Shown: positions 7,349-24,654 of the stretch, piece after piece
How positions within the stretch are numbered: position 1 is the first letter of the stretch
Layout of the letters: every line of letters begins with the position of its first letter
From: Chloroflexota bacterium
GTDB lineage: Bacteria > Chloroflexota > Dormibacteria > Dormibacterales > Dormibacteraceae
NCBI GenBank assembly: GCA_005880945.1
Contig: VBIU01000012.1
Location: forward strand, 1 to 37,630
DNA length: 37,630 bases
Direction: 5' to 3'
Program-made: the position numbers and the translations under genes
Notes under the pieces: generated by a model
What the model saw: only the letters and a program-made list of their open reading frames with translations
Told to the model about the DNA's origin: nothing
The model's database searches: none

Positions 7349-8578
7349 ATGGGCCGGACGACGCTGAAGATGCCACAGCTCGGCGAGTCGGTCACCGAAG
7401 GCACTGTCGACCGCTGGCTCAAGCAGGAAGGCGACATGGTTCGCCTCGACGAGCCGATCGTCGAGGTCGTCACCGACAAGGTCAACGCTGAGATCCCGTC
7501 GCCGTTCGAAGGCCGGTTGGTGCGCATCAAGGTCGGCGCGGGAGAGACCGTGGCGATCGGGACCGCGTTGGCCGAGCTCGAAGTGGAGGGCACAACGGAT
7601 GTGGCGGCCGAGCCCGCCCAGCCCGAGGCCGATAAACGCGATGAGCTTGCACCGAGCACTCCGGCGCTGCCTACGGCGTCGCCTGCCGCCTCCTCCGCCG
7701 AAGGCGACAGAGTCAGCCCGGCCGTGCGGCGGCTCCTCGAGGACAACGGTCTCGAGCTGTCGCAGATCACCGGCACCGGCGGCGGCGGCCGCGTCCGGCG
7801 CGAGGACGTGATCGCATACCTGGCGGAACACCGCACCCCCACGCCCGCCAAAGCTCAACCGGCCGCGGCTTCATCCGATCCTCGCGATGAGCTCGTCCGG
7901 ATCTCCGCCGTGCGCCGGCAGATCGCCGAGCACATGGTGCGCAGCGTGAGCACCTCCCCCCACGCATGGGCCCTGCGCGAGGTGGACGTAACGAACCTGG
8001 TCGAATACCGGGTGGCACAGAAAGACCAGTTCGAGGCACGCCACGGCTTTTCGCTTTCCTATGTGCCTTTCTTCATCCAGATCGTCTGCGACGCATTGCT
8101 GAAGAACCCCTACCTCAACTCGACCTGGACTGAGGAGGGCATCATCCTCAAGCCCTACGTGAACATGGGGATCGCGGTGGCGCTGCCGGACAGCCTCATC
8201 GTCCCCGTCATCAAGGACGCCGACCAGATGGGCTTCATCGACCTGGCGCACGCCCTCAACGATCTCGCCACGAGGGCCCGCAATAAGACGCTCCGTCCGG
8301 ATGACGTGCGCGGCGGCACCTTCACACTCAACAACACAGGTGCCCTCGGATCGGTGGCCGGGCAGTCGATCATCAACCAGCCGCAGGCCGCGATCCTCAG
8401 CACCGAGTCGATTCGAAAGCGCCCGGTCGCGGTCGACGACGCGGTCGCGATCCGCCCGATGATGAACCTCACGATGTCGTTCGACCATCGCATCATCGAC
8501 GGGCTCGCGGCATCTCGATTCCTCAATGCGGTGCAGAGCGGCATCGAGGACTGGACGCCGGCCAGCCTGAAGATCTAG
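7349..8578 (+). CDS. Lipoyl dihydrolipoamide acyltransferase (E2) of a 2-oxoacid dehydrogenase
   Basis: A 409-aa E2 core protein. The lipoyl domain occupies about residues 1-80 with the lipoyl-lysine in VTDKVNAEIPS (Lys44). An Ala/Pro/Glu-rich linker follows, then the peripheral-subunit-binding domain at 122-160 (VSPAVRRLLEDNGLEL to AYLAEH), a second linker, and the catalytic acyltransferase domain from about 183. The active site DHRIIDG is at 379-385 (His380, Asp384). One lipoyl domain and this core are typical of branched-chain 2-oxoacid dehydrogenase E2. It transfers the acyl group from E1-bound TPP to CoA. The matching E1 alpha and beta genes lie 8 kb away on the opposite strand, and no E3 is present in the window. 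Its TAG stop shares the palindrome CTAG with the stop of the convergent aminotransferase. Confidence 0.93.
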   Translation: MGRTTLKMPQLGESVTEGTVDRWLKQEGDMVRLDEPIVEVVTDKVNAEIPSPFEGRLVRIKVGAGETVAIGTALAELEVEGTTDVAAEPAQPEADKRDELAPSTPALPTASPAASSAEGDRVSPAVRRLLEDNGLELSQITGTGGGGRVRREDVIAYLAEHRTPTPAKAQPAAASSDPRDELVRISAVRRQIAEHMVRSVSTSPHAWALREVDVTNLVEYRVAQKDQFEARHGFSLSYVPFFIQIVCDALLKNPYLNSTWTEEGIILKPYVNMGIAVALPDSLIVPVIKDADQMGFIDLAHALNDLATRARNKTLRPDDVRGGTFTLNNTGALGSVAGQSIINQPQAAILSTESIRKRPVAVDDAVAIRPMMNLTMSFDHRIIDGLAASRFLNAVQSGIEDWTPASLKI

Positions 8579-9672
8579 CGCGTCTTCGGCGGCATCCGCT
8601 CCACGTAGGCCGCCGTCGCTCTCAGGAAGCGATCGATGGCCTCCGGTTCGGCGGCTCGGCCCATGTGGCCGACCCGGAAGATCCGCCCCCTGAGCTCGCC
8701 GAGGCCACCGCCGATGCGTATGCGGTGCTCGCTCAGCAACCAGCCGAGGTAATCCGCGACGTCCATCCCCTCCAGGCCGTACGCCGCGGTGGTCACCGGA
8801 GAAGCGGTGGCAAGGGGCGACAGCATCTCAAAACCGATCTCTTGCAGCCCTTCGCGAACCCGGTCCCTCGCCGCGGCCAATCGCCGGCAACGGGCTTCCA
8901 CGCCCTCCTCCAGCAGGCGGGTGAGCGCCAGCTCGAACGCCTCAATGACGCTGGTGGGCATGGTGGTCGGGTGCGGATGCCACCCGCTCCAGAGCTCGGA
9001 GTACCTCCGCCACGTGGCCAGGTTCAGATACCAGCCGGCAGCCTTTGGCCGGCCGTCGTCGAGGGCTGCGAGCGCACGCGGGCCGGCCGCGACCGGGGCC
9101 ACCCCGATCGGCCCCCCGATGCACTTGTTGGCCACGGTGACGCAAAGGTCGGCGCCCCACGCGTCCATGTCGAAAGGCACTCCGCCGATGGCCGAGATGC
9201 CGTCGACGATCGCCAGAGCCCCGTGCTCCCGTGCCGCGCGACATATCCCCTCGACCTCGTTGAGGACCCCGATCGACGTCTCGTGATGGACCACGCACAC
9301 GGCCCGGACGCCGGGGTGAGCCGCGAGCTCGTCCCGAACCTGGGCGGCGGTGATCGCGCCACGACCGGCGCTGAAGCTGTGCACCTGCAGCCTGTTGGCC
9401 GTCGCCACCTCGGCCATGCGATCGCCAAAGAGGCCGTTGGTGGGAATCAACACCTCGTCGCCGGGTGAGAGCACGCTTGCGATGCACATCTCCACACCGG
9501 CCATGCCGGACCCGAAGACCAGGTGGACTTCGCCGGCCGTCTTGAAAACGTCGCGCATGCCTGCGGCGGCGCGCTTGTAGAGCGCGGTCCACCTGTCGCC
9601 GTAATGCGCCTGCACCGGCCGCGCCAACGCTTCGAGGATCTCGTCCTCGACCGACACCGGTCCCGGGATCAT
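8575..9672 (-). CDS. Class V PLP-dependent aminotransferase (alanine/serine-glyoxylate type)
   Basis: A 365-aa fold-type I PLP enzyme resembling alanine-glyoxylate and serine-pyruvate aminotransferases. MIPGPVSVEDEIL is the conserved opening. VFGSGMAGVE at 52-61 is the phosphate-binding loop, HHETSIGV at 129-136 and VDGISAIGG with Asp157 bind the cofactor, and Lys183 in VANKCIGG should form the Schiff base. It would move an amino group between a small amino acid and a 2-oxo acid such as glyoxylate or pyruvate. An in-frame stop at 9721-9723 leaves ATG 9672 (or the adjacent CTG) as the only sensible start; an AAAGGAG lies 30 nt upstream. It follows the oxidase operon on the same strand and could dispose of the glycine or glyoxylate made there, which is inference. 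Confidence 0.88.
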   Translation of the reverse strand: MIPGPVSVEDEILEALARPVQAHYGDRWTALYKRAAAGMRDVFKTAGEVHLVFGSGMAGVEMCIASVLSPGDEVLIPTNGLFGDRMAEVATANRLQVHSFSAGRGAITAAQVRDELAAHPGVRAVCVVHHETSIGVLNEVEGICRAAREHGALAIVDGISAIGGVPFDMDAWGADLCVTVANKCIGGPIGVAPVAAGPRALAALDDGRPKAAGWYLNLATWRRYSELWSGWHPHPTTMPTSVIEAFELALTRLLEEGVEARCRRLAAARDRVREGLQEIGFEMLSPLATASPVTTAAYGLEGMDVADYLGWLLSEHRIRIGGGLGELRGRIFRVGHMGRAAEPEAIDRFLRATAAYVERMPPKTR

Positions 9673-9788: not shown

Positions 9789-11021
9789 TCAGGCCTCCGC
9801 CAGGACTTCGCGCGCCACGCGGTAGCCAGACTTGATCGCACCTTCCATCCCACCTGGACCCACGCGGTTGTCAGTGTGCTCACCCGCGAAGAACACACGA
9901 CCATCGAGCGGCGCGGCAATAAGCGGCAGCACCGTATCTCGCTGGTCCCCGATCGGGGCTCTCACCACGGCACGTGACCAGGGGTCCCACGTCCAGCTCT
10001 TGACATGCCCGAAGATGCGCTTGATCGGCCGCCCGACCACCGCGCTCATGGTGGCATCGACCTGGTCCAGGATCTGGTCGTCCGTGAGGCCGGAGGGCTC
10101 GATGTCGCCCGCAGCCAGGCCCGCGATGACGATCTGGTCGCCACCCTGGTGCACGGACTGCTCCATCACGAACCCCGGCATCCGATCCGTGAAGCATCCC
10201 GATCCGATGGCCGTTTTGACGAGCTCCCGCTCGGCGTACTGAACCACCAGCCTGGTCGCGTTCCCATAGCGGAGCGACAGGAGCGCTTTGACCTTGTCCA
10301 CTGGAAGCACAGGGTCGAAGCCCAGCTCGGACACGAGCGGCCCGGGGACCGTGACCACGACACGGTCGGCGTGATGGGTCTCGCGCTCTGACTCGAGGGT
10401 CACCCCGGTCGCGCTCCAGCCGACAACACGCACCGGCTGCTCGAGACGCACGTCGACCTTCTCGGCCATGGAGCGCGGCAGCGTGTCGTTGCCGCCCTTG
10501 ATCTTTCGGTAGCCCTCGCCCCACGAGAGCTCCACGTTGAGCTCTTCCGCGTCCGCGACCCGAAGCGGGGAGGCTGGCGTGGACTGCGCGATCGCGGCCA
10601 GGAGAAGCTCGGCCTGCTCGGAGATGCGAGCGCGGCGAAGCCATTGCGCCACCGACTCGAAGTGACCGGGACGGGTGTGGCGAATTGCCGCGCGCAGCTC
10701 GTTCACGACCTCGGCGGCGGCGGCGCGATCGAGGCGCTGGCCGCCGAAGATCAGGTCCGGGACCTCGGTCCCGAGGCTGAAGCGGTCGCTGAGCTCGACC
10801 CCGTTCTTCTGGCAGAGGTCGGCGATGTTCTGCTGCCCGTGGTAGATGATCTCGGCTCCGATGTCGGCGAACTGGCCGCCGGCAAAGCCCTCACGCAGCG
10901 TGAAGACGCGGCCACCGACGCGGTTTCGCGCTTCGACGACCACAACGTCGTGGCCCGCCGCCTGGATCTCGGTCGCAGCGACGAGGCCGGACAGTCCGGC
11001 GCCAACGACCAGCACCTTCAT
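9789..11021 (-). CDS. Flavin-containing amine oxidase
   Basis: A 410-aa monoamine-oxidase-like flavoprotein. LVVGAGLSGLVAATEI at residues 4-19 is the FAD-binding beta-alpha-beta unit, VVVEARNRVGGRVFTLR the GG-doublet motif that follows it, and VFFAGEHTDNRVGPGGMEGA near the C-terminus closes the flavin site as in MAO and polyamine oxidases. It oxidises a primary or secondary amine, or an L-amino acid, to an imine with H2O2 as by-product. I cannot identify the conserved C-terminal Cys that tethers FAD in animal MAO, so the flavin is probably non-covalent. The ATG overlaps the stop of the sarcosine-oxidase-like gene by 4 nt, so it belongs to the same operon. Substrate not predictable. Confidence 0.9.
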   Translation of the reverse strand: MKVLVVGAGLSGLVAATEIQAAGHDVVVVEARNRVGGRVFTLREGFAGGQFADIGAEIIYHGQQNIADLCQKNGVELSDRFSLGTEVPDLIFGGQRLDRAAAAEVVNELRAAIRHTRPGHFESVAQWLRRARISEQAELLLAAIAQSTPASPLRVADAEELNVELSWGEGYRKIKGGNDTLPRSMAEKVDVRLEQPVRVVGWSATGVTLESERETHHADRVVVTVPGPLVSELGFDPVLPVDKVKALLSLRYGNATRLVVQYAERELVKTAIGSGCFTDRMPGFVMEQSVHQGGDQIVIAGLAAGDIEPSGLTDDQILDQVDATMSAVVGRPIKRIFGHVKSWTWDPWSRAVVRAPIGDQRDTVLPLIAAPLDGRVFFAGEHTDNRVGPGGMEGAIKSGYRVAREVLAEA

Positions 11022-12205
11022 GCGCGACTCCCGTGCAGCTTGTGCGCGAAGCGCTGGGGCGAGAACGGCGCGATCGACCGCGTGGTCATGCCCTGCAGCG
11101 CGAGGTCGGCCGCGATGTCGCCGATGACCGGGGCGAATTTGAACCCGTGGCCGGAAAAACCCGCGAGCACGGTGATGCCAGGTGTGATCGGGCCGATGAC
11201 GAAGTGGCGGTCCGGCGAGTTCTCCTGCAGGCAGACGACGGCGCGGACCGGCGTCGGGTCGAGGTCGGGCAGGGCCATCCGGACGTACTGCGCCGCCGCC
11301 TCGAGGTCTGCCGGATGGATCTTCCGGTCAATCGCTTCGGGATCCTGCGGTGCGGTCTTGGCGGCGACCCCGATCTTGACGGTCTCACCGTCGACCGACG
11401 GGAAGCCGTAGCCAAACAGTGCAGGCGATCCGCCAATGTCGTGCACGAACACCGGCGCCCGGTTGGGCGCGTGGAGGGCCGGCGTGCGCGGGCGGAACCA
11501 GACCATGCACTGCCTGGTCACCTCCAGCTTCACATTCAGGCCGGCGACCAGACCGGCACCGTTCCAAGCTCCCGCGCAGACGACCGCATGCCGACCCCGC
11601 CACGTCCGGCCGGCGGCCCGCACCTCCACCCCACCCGGTACCGGTTCCACGCGGTCGACGGCCTGCCCCGTGAAGGTGCGAGCGCCGAGCGCTCGAGCTC
11701 GTGCCAGGGCTGCGGCGATCCCCGCCTCGGGGCGGACGAACCCGGCTGCAGCCTCGTACATCGCGACCTCGTGATCGAGGAGGCGGTGCCGTGCGAAGCG
11801 GCGCCGGACCCCGGCGCCGTCCAGGACCTCGTGCTCCAAACGATGCTCTTTGGCGCTGGCCAGGGCGCCCGCGACCACGTCTGAGGTCGGGTCCCCGATC
11901 ATCAGCGCGCCGGTCATGGTCAGTATGGAGGCGCCGGACTCGCCCTCCAGCTCGCGCCAGAGGCCGAACGCCTCCAGCACCAAGGGGACATAGCCAGGAC
12001 CCTCGTAGTACGCGGTCCTGATGATCCGCGACTCGCCGTGCGACGACCCCATCGCGTGGGGCGGCTCGAACCGGTCGAAGCCGATCACCGTTGCACCCCG
12101 GCGGGCGAGCCGCCACAGCGCCATGCTGCCCATCGCCCCCAGGCCGACAACAAGGACGTCGGCGTCCATGCCGCCATCCATCTGCGATGCCACTGGCTTG
12201 CTCAC
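11018..12205 (-). CDS. Monomeric sarcosine oxidase / N-methyl amino acid oxidase-like
   Basis: A 395-aa enzyme, the length of monomeric sarcosine oxidase (MSOX) and N-methyl-tryptophan oxidase. GLGAMGSM at residues 21-28 binds FAD, GSSHGESRIIR at 53-63 is a family signature, Cys325 in VVCLQENSPDRHFVIG matches the covalent flavin cysteine, and Lys356 in GFSGHGFKFAP matches the substrate-carboxylate lysine. Lys277 (ETVKIGV) fits the O2-activating lysine, but the His that follows it four residues on in MSOX is Ala281 here, so substrate choice may differ. It would demethylate an N-methyl amino acid or oxidise a cyclic imino acid, giving H2O2. The GTG start overlaps the SDR stop by 4 nt (GTGA), which decides the start over later in-frame ATGs. 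Confidence 0.9.
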   Translation of the reverse strand: MSKPVASQMDGGMDADVLVVGLGAMGSMALWRLARRGATVIGFDRFEPPHAMGSSHGESRIIRTAYYEGPGYVPLVLEAFGLWRELEGESGASILTMTGALMIGDPTSDVVAGALASAKEHRLEHEVLDGAGVRRRFARHRLLDHEVAMYEAAAGFVRPEAGIAAALARARALGARTFTGQAVDRVEPVPGGVEVRAAGRTWRGRHAVVCAGAWNGAGLVAGLNVKLEVTRQCMVWFRPRTPALHAPNRAPVFVHDIGGSPALFGYGFPSVDGETVKIGVAAKTAPQDPEAIDRKIHPADLEAAAQYVRMALPDLDPTPVRAVVCLQENSPDRHFVIGPITPGITVLAGFSGHGFKFAPVIGDIAADLALQGMTTRSIAPFSPQRFAHKLHGSRA

Positions 12206-12933
12206 ATGATTCGCCCGCCGTCGAGGAGGACGACGATTCCGGACGCGTCGGGCCAGGAGCTGATGTCGAGGCCGGCCCGGGCGATGTCCTCGGGCTGTGC
12301 GATCCGCTTGAGCGGCATCTCACGCTCCATCACGCGCTCCTGGACCGCCGGGTCGATGGCAGCCCACATGTCGGTCGCCACCGGGCCGGGCGCGATCGCG
12401 TTGACCCGGACGTGCGGAGCCAGCTCGCGCGCGAGGGTTTTCGTGAGGCCGATGAGGCCGGCCTTGGTCGCGCCGTAAGGAGCGCCGTGCAGCGAGCCCG
12501 CGACACCGCCGTCGCTGCTCACGTTGAGGATCGCGCCCCGCAGCGAAACAAGATCCGCGCGCAGCTCCTTGGCCAGGAAGGTCGGGGCGGTGAGGTTGAT
12601 AGCAACGGCGCGCTCCCACGCTTCTCGGGTCAGCTCCTCGAGGGTGTACTCCTCGCCGATGCCGGCGTTGTTGACCAGCAGGCTCACCTGGCCCTGGGCG
12701 CGGGCTGCCTCGGCCACCGCCTTGACGCCTTCGAATGCCCCGAGGTCGGCCTGGACCCTCACCGCCTCGCCTCCAATGCCGGCGGCCTGCTCAACTGTCT
12801 CGACCGCCTGCGCCTCCTGCCTTCGATAGCTGAACACGACACGATAGCCGCGCCGGACGGCCTCGAGGACGAACGCGCGTCCGATCCCGCGCGAGCCTCC
12901 CGTGACCACGGCCAAAGGCGCCACGCCGGTCAT
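12202..12933 (-). CDS. SDR-family oxidoreductase in the oxidase operon
   Basis: A 243-aa short-chain dehydrogenase. TGGSRGIG at residues 11-18, NNAG at 88-91, catalytic Ser140 (NVSS), Tyr153 and Lys157 (YGATK), then VRVNAIAPGPVATDM. The end of the first strand pair (FSYRRQ) has no acidic residue, suggesting NADP(H) rather than NAD(H). It starts 3 nt after the stop of the M24 gene and overlaps the next gene by 4 nt, so it is in the middle of the operon and should act on a carbonyl or imine made by its neighbours. The exact substrate is unknown. Confidence 0.9.
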   Translation of the reverse strand: MTGVAPLAVVTGGSRGIGRAFVLEAVRRGYRVVFSYRRQEAQAVETVEQAAGIGGEAVRVQADLGAFEGVKAVAEAARAQGQVSLLVNNAGIGEEYTLEELTREAWERAVAINLTAPTFLAKELRADLVSLRGAILNVSSDGGVAGSLHGAPYGATKAGLIGLTKTLARELAPHVRVNAIAPGPVATDMWAAIDPAVQERVMEREMPLKRIAQPEDIARAGLDISSWPDASGIVVLLDGGRIM

Positions 12934-12936
12934 CGA

Positions 12937-14109
12937 TCAGTCTTTGACAAAGAGCTGACGCGGGAAGTCGGCGAGGACCTCATGGCCTGTGTCGGTGACG
13001 CGAAACGTGTCGCTGAGCTCGAATCCCCAGCCCTCCATCCACATGCCGAGCATGAGGTGGAAGGTCATGTTCGGCTCGAGCACCGTCATGTCACCTTCGC
13101 GAATGCTGGCCGTGTGATCGGCCCAGTTCGGCGGATAGTTCACACCGATCGAGTAACCGATGCGCGAGGGCTTGTTGAACCCGGCGCGGTTGATCGTCTG
13201 CCGCCAGGCCAGCTCGATGTCCTGGCAGAGGTTGCCCGGCTTGACCGTCGCGAGCGCCGCCTCCATGCCATCGGCCGTGGCTGCCGCCAGCCGCCTCATC
13301 TCGTCGGGCGGCTTGCCGAGGTAGACGGTCCTCGACATCGCGCAGTGATATCGGAGGCGGCAGCCGCTCAGCTCGAGGCACGTGGCCGTGTCTGTGCGAA
13401 AAGGCTGGTCGGACCATGACGCATGCGGCGTCGCCGCATTCTCTGCGCTCAGGATGGAAGGCGGGTTGGCCGGCGCGTCACCGCCGAAATCTTTTGTGCC
13501 GCGGATCTGCGCCTCTGAGATGAGCGCCGCGGCGTCGCACTGGCGGGTGCCGACCGACACCGCTTCGATCGCGACACGCATCACGCTCTCTACGATGCGC
13601 GCCGCCTGCCGCATGACATCGATCTCGCGATCCGATTTCACGGTCCGCACCCAATTGACCAGCAGGTCGGCGTCCACGAATCGGGCTTGGGGCAGCGTGT
13701 CCGTGAGTACCTGCAGGTTGCGAGCGGTGAAGAAGTACGCGTTGCCTTCGTAACCGATGCGCCCACGCGCGAATCCATGCTCGTCGAGCACACCGGCGAT
13801 GTGCTGCATGGCGTGCTTGACGGGCGACTCGATGTAGTCGTCCGCGTAGCCGAGGATTTTGTCTTTCGGCAGCACGGTCGTCAGGATCGCGCTCTGCGCG
13901 TCCATGCCCCGTCCGATCCAGATTGGCGGCTCGGCCGTCATCGGCACGATCACGGCCTGGGGCACATAGAAGGACCAGGCGTCGTAGCCGGTCAGGTAGT
14001 TCATGTTCGCCGGATCGGTGACCAGCAGCACGTCGAGGGCGGCCTCCGCCATGCGCACCCGCGTCTTTTCCAGCCTCTGCGCGTACTCGTCATCGGGGAA
14101 CGCCGCCAT
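12937..14109 (-). CDS. M24-fold hydrolase, DoeA (ectoine hydrolase)/creatinase-like
   Basis: A 390-aa pita-bread-fold protein with an N-terminal creatinase domain (DPANMNYLTGYDAWSFYV at 32-49) and a C-terminal M24 domain from about 165. True M24 metallopeptidases have an Asp-Asp-His-Glu-Glu metal set; here the DxG...D segment is replaced by LELSGCRLRYHCAMSRT (245-261) and the GHG loop by GYSIGVNYPPNW (318-329), so it is probably metal-free, like creatinase and ectoine hydrolase. The block order, VLEPNMTFHLM (343-353) and the terminal FPRQLFVKD recall DoeA/EutD from memory. His229 in TPHASW fits the catalytic His. It would hydrolyse a C-N bond of ectoine, creatine or a similar solute. ATG 14109 has GGAGGT 5 nt before it and overlaps the M20 gene by 20 nt. 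Confidence 0.8.
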   Translation of the reverse strand: MAAFPDDEYAQRLEKTRVRMAEAALDVLLVTDPANMNYLTGYDAWSFYVPQAVIVPMTAEPPIWIGRGMDAQSAILTTVLPKDKILGYADDYIESPVKHAMQHIAGVLDEHGFARGRIGYEGNAYFFTARNLQVLTDTLPQARFVDADLLVNWVRTVKSDREIDVMRQAARIVESVMRVAIEAVSVGTRQCDAAALISEAQIRGTKDFGGDAPANPPSILSAENAATPHASWSDQPFRTDTATCLELSGCRLRYHCAMSRTVYLGKPPDEMRRLAAATADGMEAALATVKPGNLCQDIELAWRQTINRAGFNKPSRIGYSIGVNYPPNWADHTASIREGDMTVLEPNMTFHLMLGMWMEGWGFELSDTFRVTDTGHEVLADFPRQLFVKD

Positions 14110-15253
14110 CCACCACCTCCACAGCCTGTTCTCGGCCGAGCAGCAGGCGCTCGAACACACGCTGGGCAACCTCGAGATCTTTGAGGTCGATCCACTCGTC
14201 CGGCCGGTGCGCCCCCTGCTCGATATCCCCCGGTCCGAACAGAACGCATGGTATCCCGGCCGTATGGACGAGGAAGCCCGCGTCACTGGCTGCTCGCCAC
14301 GCCGCGATCCGGCGCGGGAGCTGCGCCGAGGCCATCGCGGCGCTCATCGACCGGATCAGGTCGTGCTCCTCGGGTATTTCGAACGCCAGGTAGTCCGGAC
14401 CGGCCTGCACCTCGACTTCTAGCCACGGATGGTGAGCCCGCGTCCTCGCGATGGCCGCCTGCAGCTCGTCAACAACCTGCTCGCGGGTCTCGCCGGGGTT
14501 GACGCGCCGATCCACCTCGACCTCGCAGCGGTCCGGCACGACGTATGGGCGCGTGCCGCCGTGGATCGTGCCAACCGTGAGATTTGGAGGGCCGAACAGG
14601 CGATGGCGCCGAGTCGCCAATCCGTCGCCGAGAGCCTCCAGCTCGAGCACGAGCCGCGCCGCAGCAGTCACGGCGTTGTGCCCCAGCTCGGGTGATGAAG
14701 CGTGCACTGACGAGCCCTTCGCGACCAGGCGGTAATTCATCAGCCCGCGGTTGGCGACCACCAGGGCCATCGCGGTGGGCTCCGCCAGCACCGCCCAATC
14801 CGCCTCGACACCTCGCGCGATGAGCGCGCGCGTGCCCGCCGAGTCCTCCTCCTCGCCGACGACTGCCGCCAGCACCACGTCGCCCGCAGGTTTGGCGCCG
14901 CGAGCTCGCAGATCGAGGATCGCCCCGAGCATCGCGGCGAGACCGCCTTTCATGTCGCACGCTCCGCGGCCGTAGAGGCGACCACCGGCGACCTCGGCGC
15001 CGAAGGGATCACGCGACCAGCCCTCCCCCACCGGGACGGTGTCCAGGTGACCTGTGAGCAGCAGCCGCGGGCCCCGGCCGACCATCCAGCGTGCGATGAC
15101 GTTGGGCCGTCCGGGCTCGACTTCTTGCATGTCCACCTCGAGGCCCGCAGCCTCGCACCGGCCGGCGAACGCTTGCGCGACAGCCTGCTCGTGGCCGGTG
15201 GCGGAGGGAATTCGAACGAGCAGCTCGAGGATCGATTGCGCTGAACCCGGCAT
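14090..15253 (-). CDS. M20-family zinc hydrolase, ArgE/DapE-like deacylase
   Basis: A 387-aa di-zinc M20 amidohydrolase. LLLTGHLDTVP places metal ligand His69 and Asp71, GRGACDMKGG the bridging Asp100, GEEEDSAGT the catalytic Glu134 and ligand Glu135, and SDAGFL plus GPGDIEQGAHRPDEW the C-terminal ligands. Residues about 170-280 form the dimerisation lid. The overall look is acetylornithine deacetylase/succinyl-diaminopimelate desuccinylase, so it removes an acyl group from an N-acyl amino acid. ATG 15253 is used although AGGAG touches it directly; an in-frame TTG at 15274 is an alternative start and lies in a palindrome. It is the first gene of the operon, and coupling to the M24 gene suggests it deacylates that enzyme's product. 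Confidence 0.88.
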   Translation of the reverse strand: MPGSAQSILELLVRIPSATGHEQAVAQAFAGRCEAAGLEVDMQEVEPGRPNVIARWMVGRGPRLLLTGHLDTVPVGEGWSRDPFGAEVAGGRLYGRGACDMKGGLAAMLGAILDLRARGAKPAGDVVLAAVVGEEEDSAGTRALIARGVEADWAVLAEPTAMALVVANRGLMNYRLVAKGSSVHASSPELGHNAVTAAARLVLELEALGDGLATRRHRLFGPPNLTVGTIHGGTRPYVVPDRCEVEVDRRVNPGETREQVVDELQAAIARTRAHHPWLEVEVQAGPDYLAFEIPEEHDLIRSMSAAMASAQLPRRIAAWRAASDAGFLVHTAGIPCVLFGPGDIEQGAHRPDEWIDLKDLEVAQRVFERLLLGREQAVEVVDGGVPR

Positions 15254-15269
15254 CTCCTGCCGAGAGTGC

Positions 15270-15281
15270 CACAAGCTTGTG
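15270..15281. promoter_or_regulatory. 12-bp perfect palindrome, candidate operator
   Basis: CACAAGCTTGTG is a perfect 12-bp palindrome in the 60-bp divergent space between the M20-led operon and the OCD-family gene. Its position suits a dimeric regulator controlling both sides. No regulator gene is adjacent in the window, so the binder is unknown. Confidence 0.45.
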
Positions 15282-15313
15282 CTTCGAGGCTCAGGCGGCG
15301 TTAACGTCAGCGC

Positions 15314-16264
15314 ATGCGCGTGCTGATGCTCAGCCAGGCCGACGTGGTCGAGCTGCTCGACCTGGGCCGGCTGTTGGACGCTCTCGAGCAGGGGTTTCGC
15401 GCGCTGAGCTCCGGCCGCGTCGAGGTGCCGGCCCGAACCTCCGTCAACGCGGAGCGGGATGGTTGGCTGGCGTCGATGCCGGGGTACGGAGCGGGCCTCG
15501 GTCTGGGTGTCAAGCTCGTGTCGGTGTTTCCGCAGAACCATTCGGCCGGATTGCCTTCGCACCAGGCGCTCATCACGCTCTTCGACCCGGCCACCGGTTC
15601 GCCGGTGGCGGTGATGGACGGCACACGCATCACCGCGATCCGTACTGCCGGCACGGCGGCGGTCTCAGTCAGGCACCTGGCCAGGAACGACGCCAGGGTT
15701 CTCGCGATCCTCGGCGCCGGGGTGCAGGGCCATGCTCACCTCGAGATCCTGCCCCTGGTGCGCAGGTTCGAGGAGATCCGCATTGCCTCGCGGACGATGG
15801 AGAGCGCCCAGCGCCTGGCGGAGCACGACCCGAAAGCCCACGCCGTCGAAAGCTACGAGGCCGCGGTGCGCGGCGCCGACGTCGTGGCCATGTGCACCCA
15901 CTCGGGCACGCCAGTGATCAAGCGCGAGTGGGTCGGGCCAGGAACGCACGTCTCGTCGGTCGGCTTCTCGGCGCCCCATGGCGAGCTCGACCGCGGCTTG
16001 GCCGCGACGGCCAACCTCTTCGTCGAGTCGAGGGCGGCGGCCTTCCAGCCGCCTCCGGTCGGCTGCATGGAGCTGGTGGGGATGGATCTCGATCGAGCGA
16101 CCGAGATAGGCGAGGTGCTTTTGCACGCCAGGCCAGGACGCCAGTCGGCCGAGGAGATCACCGTCTACAAGTCGATGGGCCACGCCGTCGAGGACCTTGC
16201 CGCATCGGGCCTCGTCTACAGGGAGGCGCTGGCAAAAGGAGCAGGGACTTTCGTCGAGCTCTGA
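15314..16264 (+). CDS. Ornithine cyclodeaminase/mu-crystallin family protein
   Basis: A 316-aa OCD-family protein. LGVKLVSVFPQN carries Lys67, TAIRTAGTAAV carries Arg110, and ILGAGVQG at 132-139 is the NAD(P) loop. These match residues that bind substrate and cofactor in ornithine cyclodeaminase. The catalytic Asp of the VGAD segment appears to be Ser219 (SSVGFSAPHGELD), which argues against true ornithine cyclisation and for a ketimine reductase, amino-acid dehydrogenase or EutC-like role. It diverges from the M20-M24 operon across a 12-bp palindrome and is convergent with E1 beta (5 nt apart). EutC, an OCD-family protein, accompanies ectoine hydrolase in some bacteria, so the pairing here may be functional; that is inference. 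Confidence 0.87.
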   Translation: MRVLMLSQADVVELLDLGRLLDALEQGFRALSSGRVEVPARTSVNAERDGWLASMPGYGAGLGLGVKLVSVFPQNHSAGLPSHQALITLFDPATGSPVAVMDGTRITAIRTAGTAAVSVRHLARNDARVLAILGAGVQGHAHLEILPLVRRFEEIRIASRTMESAQRLAEHDPKAHAVESYEAAVRGADVVAMCTHSGTPVIKREWVGPGTHVSSVGFSAPHGELDRGLAATANLFVESRAAAFQPPPVGCMELVGMDLDRATEIGEVLLHARPGRQSAEEITVYKSMGHAVEDLAASGLVYREALAKGAGTFVEL

Positions 16265-16269: not shown

Positions 16270-17244
16270 TTACTGCAGCGTCTTGCGAACTGCATCGACG
16301 ACCCTCTGCAGAGAGGGCAGGTAGTAGTCCTCCAGAGAGGCGGCTGGAAACGGCACATCGAAAGCCCCGACCCGGGCCACGGGCGCGTCCAGGTCATAAA
16401 AGATCTGCTCCATCAGGGTCGCGGAGACTTCCGCACCGAAGCCCGCTGAAAGCGGCGCCTCGTGGACGATCACGCAGCGGCCCGTCTTCGCCACCTGGCT
16501 GCATAGGGTCTCGATGTCAAGCGGCACCAGCGTTCGCAAGTCGAGCACCGTCGCCGACACGCCTTCCTCGGCCAGCTTGTCGGCCGCCCGGAGGCAGAGC
16601 TCGACCGCGGCGCTCCAGGCGACCAGCGTGATGTGCTGACCCTCCCGAACCACCGCAGCTTTTCCGAACGGCACCGTGTAGGGGCCGTCCGGAACCTCAG
16701 CCCTTCCGGACCGGTACAGGCGGTCTGGCTCGCAGAAAAGAACCGGGTCAGGATCCCGGATCGCTTCAAGAAGGAGGCCTTTGGCGTCGTAAGGATTCGA
16801 GGGCATGACGATCTTGATCCCGGGGGTCTGCACGAACTGCGCCTCAATCGCGTCGGAATGGAACTCGGGGCTGCGAATGCCTCCCCCGAAGGGCGCCCGG
16901 ATGGTGACCTGGCAGTTGTATCGCCCGCGCGAGCGCTGGCGGAACTTCCCGAGCTGAGGACCGATCTGATGGAAACCCTGGGCGGTGAAGCCAAGGAACT
17001 GAATCTCGGCCACCGGCACCATGCCCGCCAGGGCAAGGCCGAGCGACGCGCCGATGATGCTGGCCTCGGCGAGCGGAGTATCGACGACACGCTCCGCCCC
17101 GAAGCGTTCGACCAGCCCGCTCGTTGTCCGGAATACGCCGCCCAACTTGCCGACATCCAACCCGAGCAGCATCACCCGAGGATCGCTCTCCATCTCCTCG
17201 GCGAGGGCGTTGTTGATCGCCTCGACGATCGTGCGCTGCGGCAT
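16270..17244 (-). CDS. 2-oxoacid dehydrogenase E1 component, beta subunit
   Basis: A 324-aa transketolase-like beta subunit, the normal length. TIVEAINNALAEEM opens the pyrimidine-binding domain, VVDTPLAEASIIG and GMVPVAEIQFLGF follow, and the C-terminal domain has VLDLRTLVPLDIETL with CVIVHEAPLSAGFGAE. This pattern is shared by branched-chain and pyruvate E1 beta; the E1 alpha partner points to the branched-chain type. With E1 alpha it binds TPP and decarboxylates a 2-oxo acid onto the lipoyl arm of E2. ATG 17244 lies 1 nt after the E1 alpha stop (TGAGATG), so expression is coupled; an upstream extension of the frame is shadow of E1 alpha. Confidence 0.93.
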   Translation of the reverse strand: MPQRTIVEAINNALAEEMESDPRVMLLGLDVGKLGGVFRTTSGLVERFGAERVVDTPLAEASIIGASLGLALAGMVPVAEIQFLGFTAQGFHQIGPQLGKFRQRSRGRYNCQVTIRAPFGGGIRSPEFHSDAIEAQFVQTPGIKIVMPSNPYDAKGLLLEAIRDPDPVLFCEPDRLYRSGRAEVPDGPYTVPFGKAAVVREGQHITLVAWSAAVELCLRAADKLAEEGVSATVLDLRTLVPLDIETLCSQVAKTGRCVIVHEAPLSAGFGAEVSATLMEQIFYDLDAPVARVGAFDVPFPAASLEDYYLPSLQRVVDAVRKTLQ

Positions 17245-17245
17245 C

Positions 17246-18295
17246 TCAGCCGCGCCTTCCGTCAAGCAGCTCAGCTTTTTGCTGCACGACGCGCTCGGGC
17301 GGGTGCTCGTAGACGTTGGCGAAGACATCCTCCGGAGTCGGCGCCGGCGCCGCGAAGGCCATCTGCAGCGCCACCTCATTCTCACGTGTCAGCTCCTCCG
17401 TGAGCTCTGTCTCGCGCTTCTTATCCCAGAGGCCCAGGCCTGTCAGATACTTCTGGACGCGCTCGATCGGGTCCCGCTTTCGCGCCTCCTCGTGCTCCTT
17501 CGGGTCCTCGTAGCGCGATGGGTTGTCCGTGGTGTTGTGGAAGCTCATGCGATAGGTCACCGACTCGATGAGAGTGGGGCCTTCGCCTTTTCGCGCCCGC
17601 TCCACGGCGGCGACCGCGACGTCGTAGACGGCCATCACGTCATTGCCATCGACCTGGACGCCGGGGAACCCGTACCCGGCCGCTCGAAACGCAAAGCTCG
17701 TCGTCGCCGACTGGACGCGTCGCGATGTCGAGATCGCCCATTGGTTGTTCTGCAGGAAGAACACGATCGGCGATTTCGTGACGCCGGCCAGGTTGAGGGC
17801 CTCGTGAAAGTCACCCTCGGACGAGCCGCCTTCGCCGATGTACGCCATCACGACCGCGTCCTCGCCTCGGAGGCGCAGCCCCCAGGCGAGCCCCGTGGCC
17901 TGGGGCAGCTGGGCCGCGATCGAGACCTGCGTCGGCAGCACCCTGACACCGTCAGGTATGCGGGCGGGTGCGATCTTGCCCAGGTACTGCGCCGTGATGA
18001 TCTCGAGCGGCAGGCCGTGATGGACGGTCGCCATCAGCTCGCGGTACTGAGGCACGATCCAGTCTCGGGTGGGATCCAGAGCCATGGCGGAGCCAACGAT
18101 CGAAGCCTCCTGCCCCATCCCCGGAGAGAAAACACCGAACTGGCCCTGACGCTGCAGAGCGATGACCCTCGTGTCGTAGAGGCGGGACTTCATCATCCAG
18201 CGCAGCGCTTCCAGGAGGAATTCCTCTTCCATCCGCGGCTGCGCGCCGGCAGCGATCGTCCCGTCGGCCTGGAGAACGGAGTGTCGTTCCTGCAC
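17246..18295 (-). CDS. 2-oxoacid dehydrogenase E1 component, alpha subunit (branched-chain type)
   Basis: A 349-aa TPP-binding subunit. The thiamine motif runs from GEGGSSEGDFHEALN (154-168) to LQNN (181-184). DWIVPQYRELMATVHHG and TYRMSFHNTTDNPSRY are typical of branched-chain E1 alpha, the second being the loop that carries the regulatory serines in mitochondrial homologues. It decarboxylates 2-oxo acids from valine, leucine and isoleucine. The annotated start is GTG 18295 with a poor Shine-Dalgarno; an in-frame ATG 21 codons later (MEEEFLLEALRWM) is possible. It lies 43 bp after an amine oxidase gene on the same strand and 1 nt before E1 beta. E2 is 8 kb away and E3 must be encoded elsewhere. 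Confidence 0.93.
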   Translation of the reverse strand: MQERHSVLQADGTIAAGAQPRMEEEFLLEALRWMMKSRLYDTRVIALQRQGQFGVFSPGMGQEASIVGSAMALDPTRDWIVPQYRELMATVHHGLPLEIITAQYLGKIAPARIPDGVRVLPTQVSIAAQLPQATGLAWGLRLRGEDAVVMAYIGEGGSSEGDFHEALNLAGVTKSPIVFFLQNNQWAISTSRRVQSATTSFAFRAAGYGFPGVQVDGNDVMAVYDVAVAAVERARKGEGPTLIESVTYRMSFHNTTDNPSRYEDPKEHEEARKRDPIERVQKYLTGLGLWDKKRETELTEELTRENEVALQMAFAAPAPTPEDVFANVYEHPPERVVQQKAELLDGRRG

Positions 18296-18338: not shown

Positions 18339-19616
18339 TCACCCGAACGCGAGGCGCGCCTGAGCCGCCGCGCGCTCTCCGCTCAGTGCCGCACCCTCCA
18401 TGTTCGAGGCGAAGCTGTAGTCACCGCAGAAGTAGATGCCACCGACCGGCTCCGCCAGCTGATCGAACGTCTTCATCCGGCCGACGCTGTACAAGGGCAT
18501 GCCCAGCGGCCAGCGCTGAACCTCCACTCGGACGACCCGATCGCGATACTCCGGGTGGAATCGGAAAAGGGCGCGCAGCGTGCCGGTCTTGATGGTGTGG
18601 TCCGGATCGTCCCAGACCACCCGGGCGGTCGGGTCGCCGACGATGTTGTGGAAGCAGCCGCCAACCTCGTCGAAGTCGCCGGGCGTCCTGATCACGAAGG
18701 CGTCCAGGTTGTACATGACGTCCGACCTGGCGCTGGTGAGCGGGTAACGGCTGGGCTGGGAGTCTTTCGGGCTCACGACGATGTTCGTTGTCATGAAGCG
18801 GCCATAGCGGACGGCGCCAAGCGCCTGCTGCTTCCAACCCGGGAGGTCTTCGATGACCCCTGCCGCCTGCGGCGCAGGCAGAGCCGAAATCACCTGCCGT
18901 GCCCAGACGCGGCGGCGACCACGATCGTCGTCGACGTCAACCTCGTAGCCATCCTGCGCGGGACGAACTGAAACCACTCGAGAGCGAAGTGAAAGCCGGC
19001 CGCCGATCGCGCGCGCGAGCGCTTTCGTGAACTCGTTCGTGCCCCCATCGAAAACGCAATCGCCACGGTCGTGCCTCCGCACCGGAACGTCGATCCACGG
19101 AGTGCTTCGCTGGTCGCCCCACAGCCAGAGCGCACCGTAGAGCGAAATTTCGACTGCCGAGCCCGAGTTCATGATCTGGCACCAGCGATCGAAGAACCGA
19201 TGTGTGTCCGCGGACACGTCCCCCAGCCACTGGTCGAAGGGTTGGTCGTCGAGCTCGGGAAGCGTCGCGGGTCGGCGGTGCATCTGCTCGGCCGTGATCC
19301 TCTCGATGCACGACTCGATCTCTGTCCGGGTGTCGGGGTGGTCGGGATAGAGACCGCGCCAGTACTCGCCCAGGTTGTCGTCTCGGAGAAGCCTGGCGCC
19401 TACGGCGTCGGCCAGCTCGACCACCTTGACACGGTCCGTGGATACGTACTGAGCGCCGGTGTTGAGCCAGATGCCATCAGCTTGTTGAAGCGAGCGCGTC
19501 CGCCCTCCGACATAGTCGGCGGAGTCGAACACCTCCAGGTCCAGATCACGAAGGAGATAGGCCGCTGACAGGCCGGCCACCCCGCCGCCCAGCACCGCAA
19601 GATCGAGCCGCTCCAT
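18339..19616 (-). CDS. FAD-dependent amine oxidase/desaturase-like protein
   Basis: A 425-aa flavoprotein of the amine oxidase/protoporphyrinogen oxidase superfamily. AVLGGGVAGLSAAYLL at residues 7-22 and VGGRTRSL form the FAD site, LNTGAQYV follows, and GGIYFCGDYSFASNMEGAALSG near the end is the C-terminal flavin signature. The middle (residues about 120-330) is divergent, so the substrate is open: amine, amino acid or an isoprenoid. The ATG has a GGAGGGGGGG ribosome site 6 nt upstream. It heads the E1 alpha-E1 beta transcript, and an amine oxidase could supply that complex with 2-oxo acids or aldehydes; this is inference from gene order. It diverges from livH over 159 bp. Confidence 0.85.
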   Translation of the reverse strand: MERLDLAVLGGGVAGLSAAYLLRDLDLEVFDSADYVGGRTRSLQQADGIWLNTGAQYVSTDRVKVVELADAVGARLLRDDNLGEYWRGLYPDHPDTRTEIESCIERITAEQMHRRPATLPELDDQPFDQWLGDVSADTHRFFDRWCQIMNSGSAVEISLYGALWLWGDQRSTPWIDVPVRRHDRGDCVFDGGTNEFTKALARAIGGRLSLRSRVVSVRPAQDGYEVDVDDDRGRRRVWARQVISALPAPQAAGVIEDLPGWKQQALGAVRYGRFMTTNIVVSPKDSQPSRYPLTSARSDVMYNLDAFVIRTPGDFDEVGGCFHNIVGDPTARVVWDDPDHTIKTGTLRALFRFHPEYRDRVVRVEVQRWPLGMPLYSVGRMKTFDQLAEPVGGIYFCGDYSFASNMEGAALSGERAAAQARLAFG

Positions 19617-19775
19617 CAGCTACCCCCCCTCCTCTCTATCGCGCCGGCGCCGCGATTTCGGTGAGTCACGTGCGCCGTGGAGGCCACCTGTACGATACCC
19701 GCATCCGGGCATGGATTGAGCCTGGGCTGGAGCCACAAGCACCGTATCGCGGAAGCAAAGGGTGGCAAGAAAGGG

Positions 19776-20678
19776 ATGGGAGAGTTTCTCCAGTACACGG
19801 TGATCGGGCTCACGGTTGGGTCCTTCTATGCCCTGGTGGCGCTCGGCTACACGATCGTCTACGGCATCATCCGGCTGATCAACTTCGCCCAGGGAGACCT
19901 GTCGATGGTGGGCGCCTTCCTCGGGTGGACCCTGCTGGTGTCCTTCGGCCTCGACCGACTGCCCCTGTACCTGGCCCTCATCATCGCGTTCGTCGTGCCG
20001 ATGCTCGGGACGGCGGTTGTCAACCTCGGTATCCTCCAGTTCGCATACAAGCCGCTGCTTAAGCGATCGCTGCTGGCGATCCTGATCACGGCGCTCGGCA
20101 TGTCCCTTCTTCTGCAAAACACTGCGGAGTTGATCTGGGGTCCCCGTATCGAGGCCTACCCGCCCAACCTGCTGCCCTCAACCGGCTTCTTCATGGGCCC
20201 CGTACACGTCACATACGTCCAGATTGCCCTCGCCTTCGTGAGCCTCCTTCTGATGGGAGCCATGGTCCTTTTCATCCAGGGCACGACGGTCGGCACCGCC
20301 ATGCGCGCGCTGGCGGTGGACCACGACGCCGCCCGCCTCATGGGCATCAACGTCGACGGCGTCATCCGACTCGCCTTCGTGCTCGGCGCCATGCTAGCGG
20401 CGGCCTCGGGCGTGATGCTCGGCCTCTATTACGTCCAGATTCAGTTCACGCTGGGCTTCCTGCTTGGACTCAGGGCCTTCACCGCCGCCGTCATTGGCGG
20501 CATCGGGAACATTCCCGGGGCGATGGCGGGCGGCATGTTGATCGGCCTACTGGAGTCCTACACGACCGGCTACCTCTCGGGCAAGTGGAAAGACGTGATC
20601 GTGTTCGGCGTCCTGATCACGGTTCTGATCGTCAAGCCCACGGGCCTGTTCGGCGAGCGCGTGGCGGAACGAATGTGA
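19776..20678 (+). CDS. livH: Branched-chain amino acid ABC transporter permease LivH
   Basis: A 300-aa inner-membrane permease with hydrophobic helices throughout. GLTVGSFYALVALGYTIVYG and RLINFAQGDLSMVGAF at the start, and RAFTAAVIGGIGNIPGAMAGG near residue 235, are LivH hallmarks; the last is the coupling loop that meets the ATPase. With the LivM part of the next gene it forms the membrane channel of a high-affinity importer for Leu/Ile/Val or related amino acids or amides. ATG 19776 was chosen over earlier in-frame starts because it begins directly before the first helix and follows AAGAAAGGG. A TACGAT hexamer at 19691-19696 could be a -10 box. The stop overlaps the GTG of the LivM-LivG gene. 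Confidence 0.93.
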   Translation: MGEFLQYTVIGLTVGSFYALVALGYTIVYGIIRLINFAQGDLSMVGAFLGWTLLVSFGLDRLPLYLALIIAFVVPMLGTAVVNLGILQFAYKPLLKRSLLAILITALGMSLLLQNTAELIWGPRIEAYPPNLLPSTGFFMGPVHVTYVQIALAFVSLLLMGAMVLFIQGTTVGTAMRALAVDHDAARLMGINVDGVIRLAFVLGAMLAAASGVMLGLYYVQIQFTLGFLLGLRAFTAAVIGGIGNIPGAMAGGMLIGLLESYTTGYLSGKWKDVIVFGVLITVLIVKPTGLFGERVAERM

Positions 20679-22579
20679 TCGACCGGCTGGCCAACCATCG
20701 CGTGGCTCGCACGTACGTCGCGACCCGCGATCAGCTGGCCCGGCTCCCGTTCTGGGTGCGAGTCATCGTGATCCTCGGCGCGGTGGGTGGCTCCGTGCTG
20801 GCGAACGGCGACGACTACGTGACGGCCGTCGGCGTCTCGGTTGCAACGTACGCGATGCTCGGGCTGGGCCTCAACATCGTGGTCGGCTACGCGGGCCTTC
20901 TGGACCTCGGCTACGCCGCCTTCTTCGCGATCGGCGCTTACACGAGCGCGCTGCTGATGACGCAGGCCCACTGGAACTTCTTCGCCACTCTGCCGCTGGC
21001 GGTGCTCTTCACCGGCACGGCCGGAGCGATCCTCGGGTATCCGACGCTGCGCCTCCGCAGCGACTACCTCGCCATCGTGACGCTGGGCTTCGGCGAGATG
21101 ACCCGCATCACCTTTAACAACTGGGACTACGCGGGCGGTCCGAACGGCATCCTGCAGATTCCCTGGCCCAATTTTTTCGGGTACGAGCTGAACACGCAGG
21201 GCGATTTCTTCATCGTCGGCCTCGCCCTCCTTGCCGTCGCGATGATCTTCGCCCAGAACCTCGACCATTCGAGGCTCGGACGAGGCTGGGTCGCCATCAG
21301 GGAAGACGAATTTGCGGCCGAATCGGTCGGCGTCCCCTCGCTGCGGCTGAAGCTCTTCGCCTACGTGATGGGCGGGATGTGGGGCGGTCTCGCGGGTGCC
21401 TTCTTCGCCACCCGCATCGGCGCCATCGACCCGACGAGCTTCACGTTCCAGCTATCGGTGCTGGTCCTGATCGTCATCGTCCTCGGTGGCATCGGCAGCC
21501 TGCCCGGGGTGATCGTGGGGGCGTTGGTGGTGGTGGCGATGCCCGAGGTCCTGCGCGAGTTCGCCGACCGGCGGCTGCTCATCTTCGCGGTGCTCCTGAT
21601 CGGCATGATGCTCGTGCGGCCGCAGGGCCTGTGGCCCCGCATCCGGCGTAAGCCGAAACCTTTCTACGGCCTGGAGGAAGAGGAGTCGGAAGACGTCGCC
21701 GACAAGATCTTGCGGGAGCACCAGGTCCAGATGGAAGAGAGGGATCGCCGGCACGCGGCGGCCGGCCGGCAGGTGCCCCAGAGAGGCGAGGCGCTGCTCG
21801 AGGTCGAGGGTGTGGTCCAGCAGTTCGGCGGCCTGCGCGCGGTCGACAACGTCACTTTCGAGGTTTATCGCGGAGAGATCTTCAGCATCATCGGCCCCAA
21901 TGGCGGCGGCAAAACCACCCTCTTCAACTGCATCACCGGTGTACAGAAGCCAAAGCGCGGAAAGATTCGATTTGACGGCCGGTCGGTAGTCGGCCTCCGC
22001 CCGCACGTGATCGTCTCGCGCGGCATCGGCCGCACGTTCCAGGGCATCCGGCTCTTCAAGCAAATGGCGGTGTTCGAGAACGTGATGGTCGGTCTGTACC
22101 CGCGCCACCGCACGATGACGTGGCAGGCGATGCTCCACACGCCCGGCGAGCGAAACGATGAGGTTCGCACGCTGCAGGAATCGCGCCGCTGGCTTGGGTT
22201 TGTGGGCCTGGAGTCGGTCGCCGGCCGGCTGGCGACCGAGCTGTCCTACGCAGACCAGCGCCGGGTCGAGATCGCGCGCGCTCTCGCCGCGCACCCGCAT
22301 CTCGTGCTCTTCGACGAGCCTGCGGCCGGCATGAACCCGACCGAGAAGCTGGAGCTCGTCGGCATCATCCGAAAGATCCGAGACCTTGGGATCACCGTGG
22401 TCCTGATCGACCACGACATGTCGCTCGTGATGCGGGTCTCGGACCGTATCGCGGTGCTCGACCACGGAGTTCTGATCGCGATCGGCAAGCCGGCCGAGAT
22501 CCAGCAGAACCCTTTGGTCATCGAGGCTTACCTCGGCCGTGAGGAGGACCTGGTCGAAGAGCAGGCCGAGGGAGCTTAG
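20675..22579 (+). CDS. livM-livG: Fused LivM permease-LivG ATPase
   Basis: A 634-aa fusion of two normally separate Liv subunits. Residues 1-320 are LivM: NIVVGYAGLLDLGYAAFFAIG at 67-87, RLRSDYLAIVTLGFGEM, and GGIGSLPGVIVGA at 271-283. A highly charged linker (about 322-372, with EEEESED) leads to LivG: Walker A GPNGGGKTT 407-415 (Gly where Ala is usual), Q-loop Gln456, signature LSYADQRR 523-530, Walker B LVLFDEP 543-549 and switch His580. All ATPase residues are present, so it should be active. One polypeptide thus supplies membrane and ATPase halves. Start GTG 20675 overlaps the livH stop by 4 nt; LivF begins 2 nt after this gene. Confidence 0.93.
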   Translation: MIDRLANHRVARTYVATRDQLARLPFWVRVIVILGAVGGSVLANGDDYVTAVGVSVATYAMLGLGLNIVVGYAGLLDLGYAAFFAIGAYTSALLMTQAHWNFFATLPLAVLFTGTAGAILGYPTLRLRSDYLAIVTLGFGEMTRITFNNWDYAGGPNGILQIPWPNFFGYELNTQGDFFIVGLALLAVAMIFAQNLDHSRLGRGWVAIREDEFAAESVGVPSLRLKLFAYVMGGMWGGLAGAFFATRIGAIDPTSFTFQLSVLVLIVIVLGGIGSLPGVIVGALVVVAMPEVLREFADRRLLIFAVLLIGMMLVRPQGLWPRIRRKPKPFYGLEEEESEDVADKILREHQVQMEERDRRHAAAGRQVPQRGEALLEVEGVVQQFGGLRAVDNVTFEVYRGEIFSIIGPNGGGKTTLFNCITGVQKPKRGKIRFDGRSVVGLRPHVIVSRGIGRTFQGIRLFKQMAVFENVMVGLYPRHRTMTWQAMLHTPGERNDEVRTLQESRRWLGFVGLESVAGRLATELSYADQRRVEIARALAAHPHLVLFDEPAAGMNPTEKLELVGIIRKIRDLGITVVLIDHDMSLVMRVSDRIAVLDHGVLIAIGKPAEIQQNPLVIEAYLGREEDLVEEQAEGA

Positions 22580-22581
22580 CC

Positions 22582-23316
22582 TTGGCGCTTCTCGAGATCA
22601 ACGACCTCCATGTCTTTTACGGCAACATCGAAGCCCTGAAGGGCATCTCCCTGGCGGCCGAACCCGGCCAGATCGTGGCCATCCTCGGGGGCAACGGCGC
22701 CGGCAAGACCACGACGCTGCGGACCATATCCGGGCTGCTCCGGCCGCGCACCGGCTCCATCACATACCGCGGCAAGAGCCTGATCGGCATCCAGGCGCAC
22801 CTCATCGTTGGGCTCGGCTTGAGCCATGTCCCCGAGGGCCGGCGCATCTTCAGCATCCTTACCGTCGAGGAAAACCTCAACCTCGGTGGCTACCTGATCC
22901 GATCCGACCGAAAGCTGGTCGGTGAGCGCAAGGCCTCGATCTACACATTGTTCCCAAGGCTGGCCGAGCGGCGGACGCAGCTGGCGGGGACCTTGTCCGG
23001 AGGCGAGCAGCAGATGCTGGCGATCGGCCGGGCGTTGATGTCGGGCCCCAAGGTGCTGATGCTCGACGAGCCGTCCCTCGGGCTTTCGCCGATCCTGGCT
23101 CGAAGCGTGTTGAAGACAGTGCGCGAGATCGCGAACCGAGGCACAGCGGTGCTGCTCGTGGAGCAGAACGCGCGCCAGGCTCTTGCCATCGCCGACCGGG
23201 CCTACGTAATCGAGGTCGGGCGGGTCGTGCTCGAAGGCGAAGCGGCGATCCTCGCCGGGGACGAGAGGGTGCAGAAGGCATACCTCGGCGGCTTCGAGGC
23301 GGTCGGCGCAGGCTGA
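22582..23316 (+). CDS. livF: Branched-chain amino acid ABC transporter ATPase LivF
   Basis: A 244-aa ATPase of normal LivF length. Walker A GGNGAGKTT at 36-44, VPEGRRIFSILTVEENL at 83-99 (a LivF hallmark), signature LSGGEQQML at 138-146, Walker B VLMLDEPSLGL at 158-168 and VEQNARQAL as switch region. It pairs with the LivG half of the fused subunit to drive import. The start is TTG, 2 nt after the previous stop, with GAGGGAG upstream inside that gene. It is the last gene of the operon and is followed by a strong hairpin. Confidence 0.94.
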   Translation: MALLEINDLHVFYGNIEALKGISLAAEPGQIVAILGGNGAGKTTTLRTISGLLRPRTGSITYRGKSLIGIQAHLIVGLGLSHVPEGRRIFSILTVEENLNLGGYLIRSDRKLVGERKASIYTLFPRLAERRTQLAGTLSGGEQQMLAIGRALMSGPKVLMLDEPSLGLSPILARSVLKTVREIANRGTAVLLVEQNARQALAIADRAYVIEVGRVVLEGEAAILAGDERVQKAYLGGFEAVGAG

Positions 23317-23334
23317 GGTGCCGCCGAGACGAAA

Positions 23335-23359
23335 TGAGGGGCGCTCGAAGCGCCCCTCA
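23335..23359. terminator. Bidirectional terminator hairpin
   Basis: A perfect 11-bp GC-rich stem (TGAGGGGCGCT) with a 3-nt CGA loop sits 18 nt after livF and 26 nt before the end of the convergent binding-protein gene. There is no U-tract on the plus side (CCAAAG) and only a short TTTC on the minus side, so it is likely a compact two-way terminator. Confidence 0.75.
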
Positions 23360-23385
23360 CCAAAGTTCGAGTCAGCTGACCGAGA

Positions 23386-24576: not shown

Positions 24577-24654
24577 CGGTTGCCCTCCCAACTCGATACC
24601 TGCCCAGGCAATGCTTGGAACTGCTTCACGCCCAAGCCGATCCCGGGGCACCTT

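Follow-up and report, generated by a model that had tools for sequence, protein, structure and literature searches.

A gene for a DoeA-like M24 hydrolase and a gene for an M20 deacylase form a conserved pair in a soil bacterium from the uncultured phylum Dormibacterota. The pairing is a real variant of an arrangement that is already on record, and ectoine is its putative substrate. We favor, with a probability of roughly 60%, the reading that a DoeA-type enzyme hydrolyzes the ring of the stress protectant ectoine, or of a closely related cyclic amidine, and that an M20 enzyme then carries out the deacylation, replacing DoeB. Provided that this ring-opening and deacylation reading holds, we lean slightly toward ectoine or hydroxyectoine as the substrate. 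We built the reading on family membership, the conservation of catalytic residues, the gene pairing and the absence of doeB, and from these we infer the chemistry, the order of the steps and the substrate.

The window (the whole stretch of DNA analyzed here, 37,630 bases) is contig C21 of a 3.3-Mb genome (G000). A sequence-only reading had described M24, M20 and ornithine cyclodeaminase (OCD) family genes at this locus, and the ORF coordinates agree: the M24 and M20 ORFs lie on the same strand and share 20 nt, and the OCD-family ORF diverges from both. The features of the window are as follows.

7349-8578, +: 2-oxoacid dehydrogenase E2, conserved (PF00198, synteny)
8575-9672, -: class V aminotransferase, conserved (profiles, synteny)
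9789-11021, -: flavin amine oxidase, conserved (PF01593, synteny)
11018-12205, -: N-methyltryptophan/sarcosine oxidase-type FAD oxidase, seen in no other genus (NF008425, 392 bits against a cut-off of 257; synteny)
12202-12933, -: SDR oxidoreductase of the same operon, also adjacent to M24 in relatives G296, G207 and G247 (profiles, synteny)
12937-14109, -: M24 protein of the DoeA/EutD family, 390 aa (profile, structure-database sequence search, alignments, tree, fold)
14090-15253, -: predicted M20 deacylase of the ArgE/DapE subfamily, 387 aa, overlapping the M24 start by 20 nt (TIGR01910, PF01546, PF07687; nearest solved structures DapE/ArgE)
15270-15281, no strand: palindrome CACAAGCTTGTG in the M20-OCD interval (palindrome count, comparison with relatives)
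15314-16264, +: OCD/mu-crystallin family reductase (profile models, nearest solved structures)
16270-18295, -: 2-oxoacid dehydrogenase E1 beta and E1 alpha, conserved (profiles, synteny)
18339-19616, -: second flavin amine oxidase, conserved (profiles, synteny)
19677-24666, no strand: branched-chain amino acid (LIV)-type ABC transporter with binding protein (neighborhood comparison)
29445-30314, +: DUF1989 protein, with an 81% relative inside the M24-M20-EctC cluster of G376 (neighborhood comparison)

The operon contains no DoeC/DoeD-type genes; the neighbors of the M24-M20 pair are FAD oxidases, a LIV-type transporter and a 2-oxoacid dehydrogenase. LivH is linked to M24 in same-family loci on long enough contigs, including those of relatives G376 and G360. 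One ORF (20585-22579) fuses a LivM-type permease to a LivG-type ATPase. We saw no promoter or terminator signals of note.

We compared the M24 protein to solved structures and family models. Its best solved match by sequence was DoeA from H. elongata (6twk, E=1e-108, about 45% identity), followed by prolidase at 4e-21 and creatinase at 1e-13. An AlphaFold2 model (mean pLDDT 89) matched the DoeA fold with a TM score of 0.94, and the next fold reached about 0.82-0.83 (creatinase 0.83). In a tree, the protein fell inside the DoeA family and apart from the prolidase-type M24 proteins of its own genome. Its score against the DoeA equivalog model TIGR02993 was 445 bits, below the cut-off of 613. DoeA-like members from Bacillota, delta-proteobacteria and haloarchaea scored 485-534 bits and were likewise below the cut-off, which only two canonical proteobacterial proteins passed among the proteins we tested. 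Because DoeA is closest by sequence, fold and tree, yet the model score is under the cut-off, we assign the M24 protein by homology to the DoeA family, but not as a curated DoeA. The E-value of the DoeA match, together with synteny kept in several genomes of the same family, places this finding beyond chance. The nearest named relative is a 93% identical protein on PLJM01000020.1 (Candidatus Dormiibacterota isolate palsa_842). Outside the phylum, the closest M24 on the tree is from Ancylobacter sonchi (L102, 9059-12152); it sits between genes for a luciferase-like monooxygenase and a CofD-family protein; a LIV transporter lies close by, and M20 is missing.

The active site points the same way. 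An alignment with prolidase (5cdl) showed that four of five metal ligands are replaced in the M24 protein (E246 for Asp, A257 for Asp, Y319 for His and M353 for Glu) and that E364 is retained. The protein is therefore no prolidase, and DoeA shows a similar replacement. E246, H229 and R316 of M24 correspond to E255, H238 and R326 of DoeA and are invariant in alignments of 12 and 23 sequences. In DoeA, we take E255 to be catalytic and R326 to lie within the active site. DoeA/EutD proteins (TIGR02993; PDB 6TWJ, 6TWK, 6YO9) resemble the window protein in fold, in the lost metal site and in the catalytic Glu and His, and the two share the blocks GYDxWSFYV, GGD, YPPxW and FHxM. They differ in that Pro replaces the His of FYVHQ (FYVPQ in the window), in that NYPPNWADH replaces SYPPDWGER, and in their operon partners. 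The sequence-only reading had called the protein DoeA-like from the lost ligands and from blocks including FPRQLFVKD. These blocks are present, and profiles, structure matches and the tree all placed the protein with DoeA rather than with prolidases or creatinases.

The partner had been described as an ArgE/DapE-like M20 enzyme, and it scored 260 bits against TIGR01910 (cut-off 217.6), with DapE and ArgE as its nearest solved relatives. Metal and catalytic residues were identified by eye in TGHLDTVP, CDMKGG, GEEED, AEPT and AHRPDE. The M20-type N-acetyl-diaminobutyrate deacetylase DoeB2 (NF038260) also belongs to the M20 superfamily and adjoins a DoeA-family gene, but it is of the TIGR01891 amidohydrolase type. 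NF038260 was not among the best 25 models matching the window M20, which therefore scores below 92 bits to DoeB2. We regard the window M20 as a further variant from a different subfamily. The only candidate for a DoeB2-type M20 elsewhere in the genome was a 34% relative on a different contig, which we rejected. The DoeB model had no match in our searches of this genome, which is 93% complete, nor did a scan of 400 genomes from the phylum yield any score above the cut-off.

Canonical doeAB/eutDE loci in Proteobacteria likewise place a DoeA-family gene co-oriented with a deacylase gene. Unlike the window locus, they have a deacylase of the DoeB (M14/AstE) type, Ehu or Ueh transport and the regulator EnuR; the window locus has neither doeB/eutE nor EhuB. 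AbgB is an M20 enzyme. The M20-type DoeB2 is already in NCBIfam, and putative ectoine clusters of Bacillota in which eutD is accompanied by abgB, an amidohydrolase gene, and eutE is absent were described in 2026 (PMC13188858), so an M20 substitute is not new in kind. Like the window, those Bacillota clusters combine a DoeA-like gene with an M20 gene and lack DoeB, but they have EutB/EutC, an aminotransferase (atf) and ectoine-type transporters, which are missing from the window operon (PMC13188858). In the methanotroph Mm. alcaliphilum, DoeB shares just 22% identity with its H. elongata counterpart, and a mutant in which N-alpha-acetyl-DAB accumulates supports its role (PMC7192451); this protein is probably of the DoeB2 type. 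What is new here is the ArgE/DapE subfamily of the M20 partner and the phylum.

We surveyed 86 DoeA-like loci (80 from genomes and 6 from plasmids), scoring M20 genes within 8 kb. M20 without DoeB occurred in 50 loci (counting L062, which holds only an M20 remnant), DoeB without M20 in 20, neither in 16 and both in none. DoeB was found in Pseudomonadota, and M20 in Bacillota, haloarchaea, Myxococcota, Thermodesulfobacteriota and Atribacterota. This split tracks phylogeny; the independent events are therefore few, and a Fisher test overstates their number. EutB/EutC-type genes or BCCT/Ehu-type transporters were present in 26 of the 50 M20 loci, and haloarchaeal and Bacillota loci combine a DoeA-like M24, an M20, EutB/EutC-type genes and BCCT or Ehu-type transporters. 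The sequence-only reading had suggested a search for M20-M24 pairs lacking doeB and had proposed that M20 stands in for DoeB. The absence of doeB from the genome and the mutual exclusion of M20 and DoeB in the survey support the proposed substitution, but its supposed novelty falls to the DoeB2 and abgB precedents.

The M24-M20 pair is conserved in four relatives (G296, G207, G095 and G376). The whole block, comprising an oxidase, SDR, M24 and M20 on one side and OCD, E1, a second oxidase and the LIV transporter on the other, is kept in G296 and G207, and in G095 as far as its short contig reaches. In G376, whose M24 is 72% identical, one strand carries in order DUF1989, a second M20, the ArgE/DapE M20, M24 and EctC, and genes for E1, a PLP dehydratase, SDR and LIV lie on the opposite strand. 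Against DoeB2 (NF038260), the second M20 of this cluster scored 317 bits, below the cut-off of 550. In G360, M24 faces an M20 of a third subfamily (PRK07906 type) 25 nt away. A different outcome is seen in G247, a member of the same genus, in which a deletion of about 1 kb at the OCD-M24 junction (L062/L035; L035, 9326-9514) has left only the last 56 residues of M20. The G247 M24 gene has a dN/dS near 0.1 against the window gene, indicating purifying selection, and no close M20 replacement was found in G247 (best other match 37%). Because M20 is mostly deleted and M24 is under purifying selection, at least one relative either does without M20 or replaces it in trans, provided that the G247 contig is correctly assembled.

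These data suggest a pathway. The LIV-type transporter would import ectoine or a close cyclic-amidine amino acid. M24, acting as a metal-independent amidine hydrolase, would open the ring to yield an N-acyl diamino acid, and the M20 metallo-hydrolase of the ArgE/DapE type would then cleave the acyl group, replacing the absent DoeB. The free diamino acid might be oxidized by the flavin oxidases, aminotransferase and reductases of the operon. Ectoine as the substrate is favored by the family of M24, its active-site residues, an EctC gene beside M24 in G376 and the two solitary EctC genes that G000 carries. It is disfavored by the M24 score of 445 bits against 613, an M20 that is not of the DoeB2 type, the loss of M20 in G247, the lack of EctA above cut-off, of EhuB and of DoeC/DoeD-type genes, and the occurrence of solitary EctC in amidase clusters elsewhere.

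The ectoine synthase (EctC) gene of G376 (contig C36, 11478-11852; L039, 8779-9153, minus strand) lies directly downstream of M24, after the two M20 genes, and neither EctA nor EctB was seen in this cluster. The solitary EctC genes of G000 are at C30:2531-2908 and C196:20588-20965. No EctA scored over cut-off, so there is no ectoine biosynthesis cluster, and the ectoine-specific binding protein EhuB was not found. EutB candidates in the genome were only general PLP dehydratases below the cut-off. We considered whether EctC could serve as proof of ectoine. On plasmids, solitary EctC genes either have amidase genes as neighbors or belong to clusters of a polyketide- or fatty-acid-like kind, and the regions read around them contain no annotated M24. 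Since solitary EctC also occurs in such M24-less amidase clusters, the EctC link is no proof of ectoine.

It is possible, though we think it unlikely, that M24 acts on another cyclic amidine or guanidine, such as a putative ornithine-derived homoectoine-like ring, with the ArgE-like M20 deacylating an N-acyl amino acid and the OCD protein reducing an oxidase-made cyclic ketimine. The ArgE/DapE type of the M20 fits this alternative, as does a LIV transporter in place of Ehu/Ueh. So does the OCD protein, which had been proposed as a member of the EutC family. This kinship holds at the family level only: the protein scored 149 bits against the EutC model TIGR02992 (cut-off 472), which rules out EutC itself, and it matched archaeal alanine dehydrogenase (207 bits) and pyrroline-2-carboxylate reductase models better. 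Among solved proteins, delta1-pyrroline-2-carboxylate and ketimine reductases come closest to it. DUF1989 and agmatinase-family genes within the window also favor this alternative, and carboxyguanidine deiminases are found among DUF1989 proteins. A further point in its favor is that EctC can hydrolyze homoectoine and turn glutamine into ADPC; what solitary EctC proteins do is described as unresolved (PMC5924519). Against this alternative, M24 retains every residue of the ectoine site that we could name.

We advance only tentatively the idea that Dormibacterota have a separate cyclic-amidine catabolic pathway consisting of a DoeA-like hydrolase, an ArgE-type M20 and, in one lineage, a solitary EctC. 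Such a pathway, if real, would give solitary EctC proteins a metabolic role, and the G376 cluster, in which a solitary EctC is joined to a DoeA-like hydrolase, makes that role directly testable. If the favored ring-opening and deacylation reading holds, ectoine-type catabolism would reach into an uncultured phylum of soil bacteria, and several M20 subfamilies, in addition to DoeB, would have come to serve the deacylation that follows DoeA.

The DoeA-type ring-opening reading also assumes that M24 and M20 act in sequence. We judge it improbable that they are instead unrelated peptide or amino-acid hydrolases in a general amine and amino-acid catabolic island. The retention of M24 without M20 in G247, the different M20 subfamilies among relatives and the many nearby oxidases of unrelated kinds would fit two independent enzymes, but the 20-nt overlap, the repeated pairing (including the different M20 beside M24 in G360) and the recurrence of M20 beside DoeA-like genes in several phyla argue for a joint function. 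That M24 is a prolidase or creatinase in a locus unconnected with cyclic amidines is very hard to credit: the M24 fold would allow it, as would an operon gene of the sarcosine oxidase type, which creatine breakdown also involves, but creatinase is far more distant than DoeA by sequence and fold, and relatives from other genera that have the operon lack the sarcosine-type oxidase.

The palindrome CACAAGCTTGTG noted between M20 and OCD is present, but it does not stand as an operator. The window has 18 palindromes of 12 bp against about 17 expected, and CACAAGCTTGTG is not palindromic in three relatives; most relatives preserve just the half around GAGTGCCACAAG. The motif GAGAGTGCCACAAG occurs once in the window.

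Divergent GNAT and DUF1989 genes (28977-30314) form a pair that also adjoins the G376 M24-M20-EctC cluster, and an agmatinase-family gene diverges from a class III aminotransferase gene at 32388-34853, possibly part of a route for guanidino compounds. The C196 EctC copy adjoins nitrilase-, DUF1989- and amidase-like genes (nitrilase and amidase named by eye). On Caballeronia and Rhizobium plasmids (L187, L189 and L190), solitary EctC adjoins genes for amidases and for transport of the amino-acid or Ehu type. A DUF2817 gene is a neighbor both of EctC (L187) and of a DoeA-like M24 (L050).
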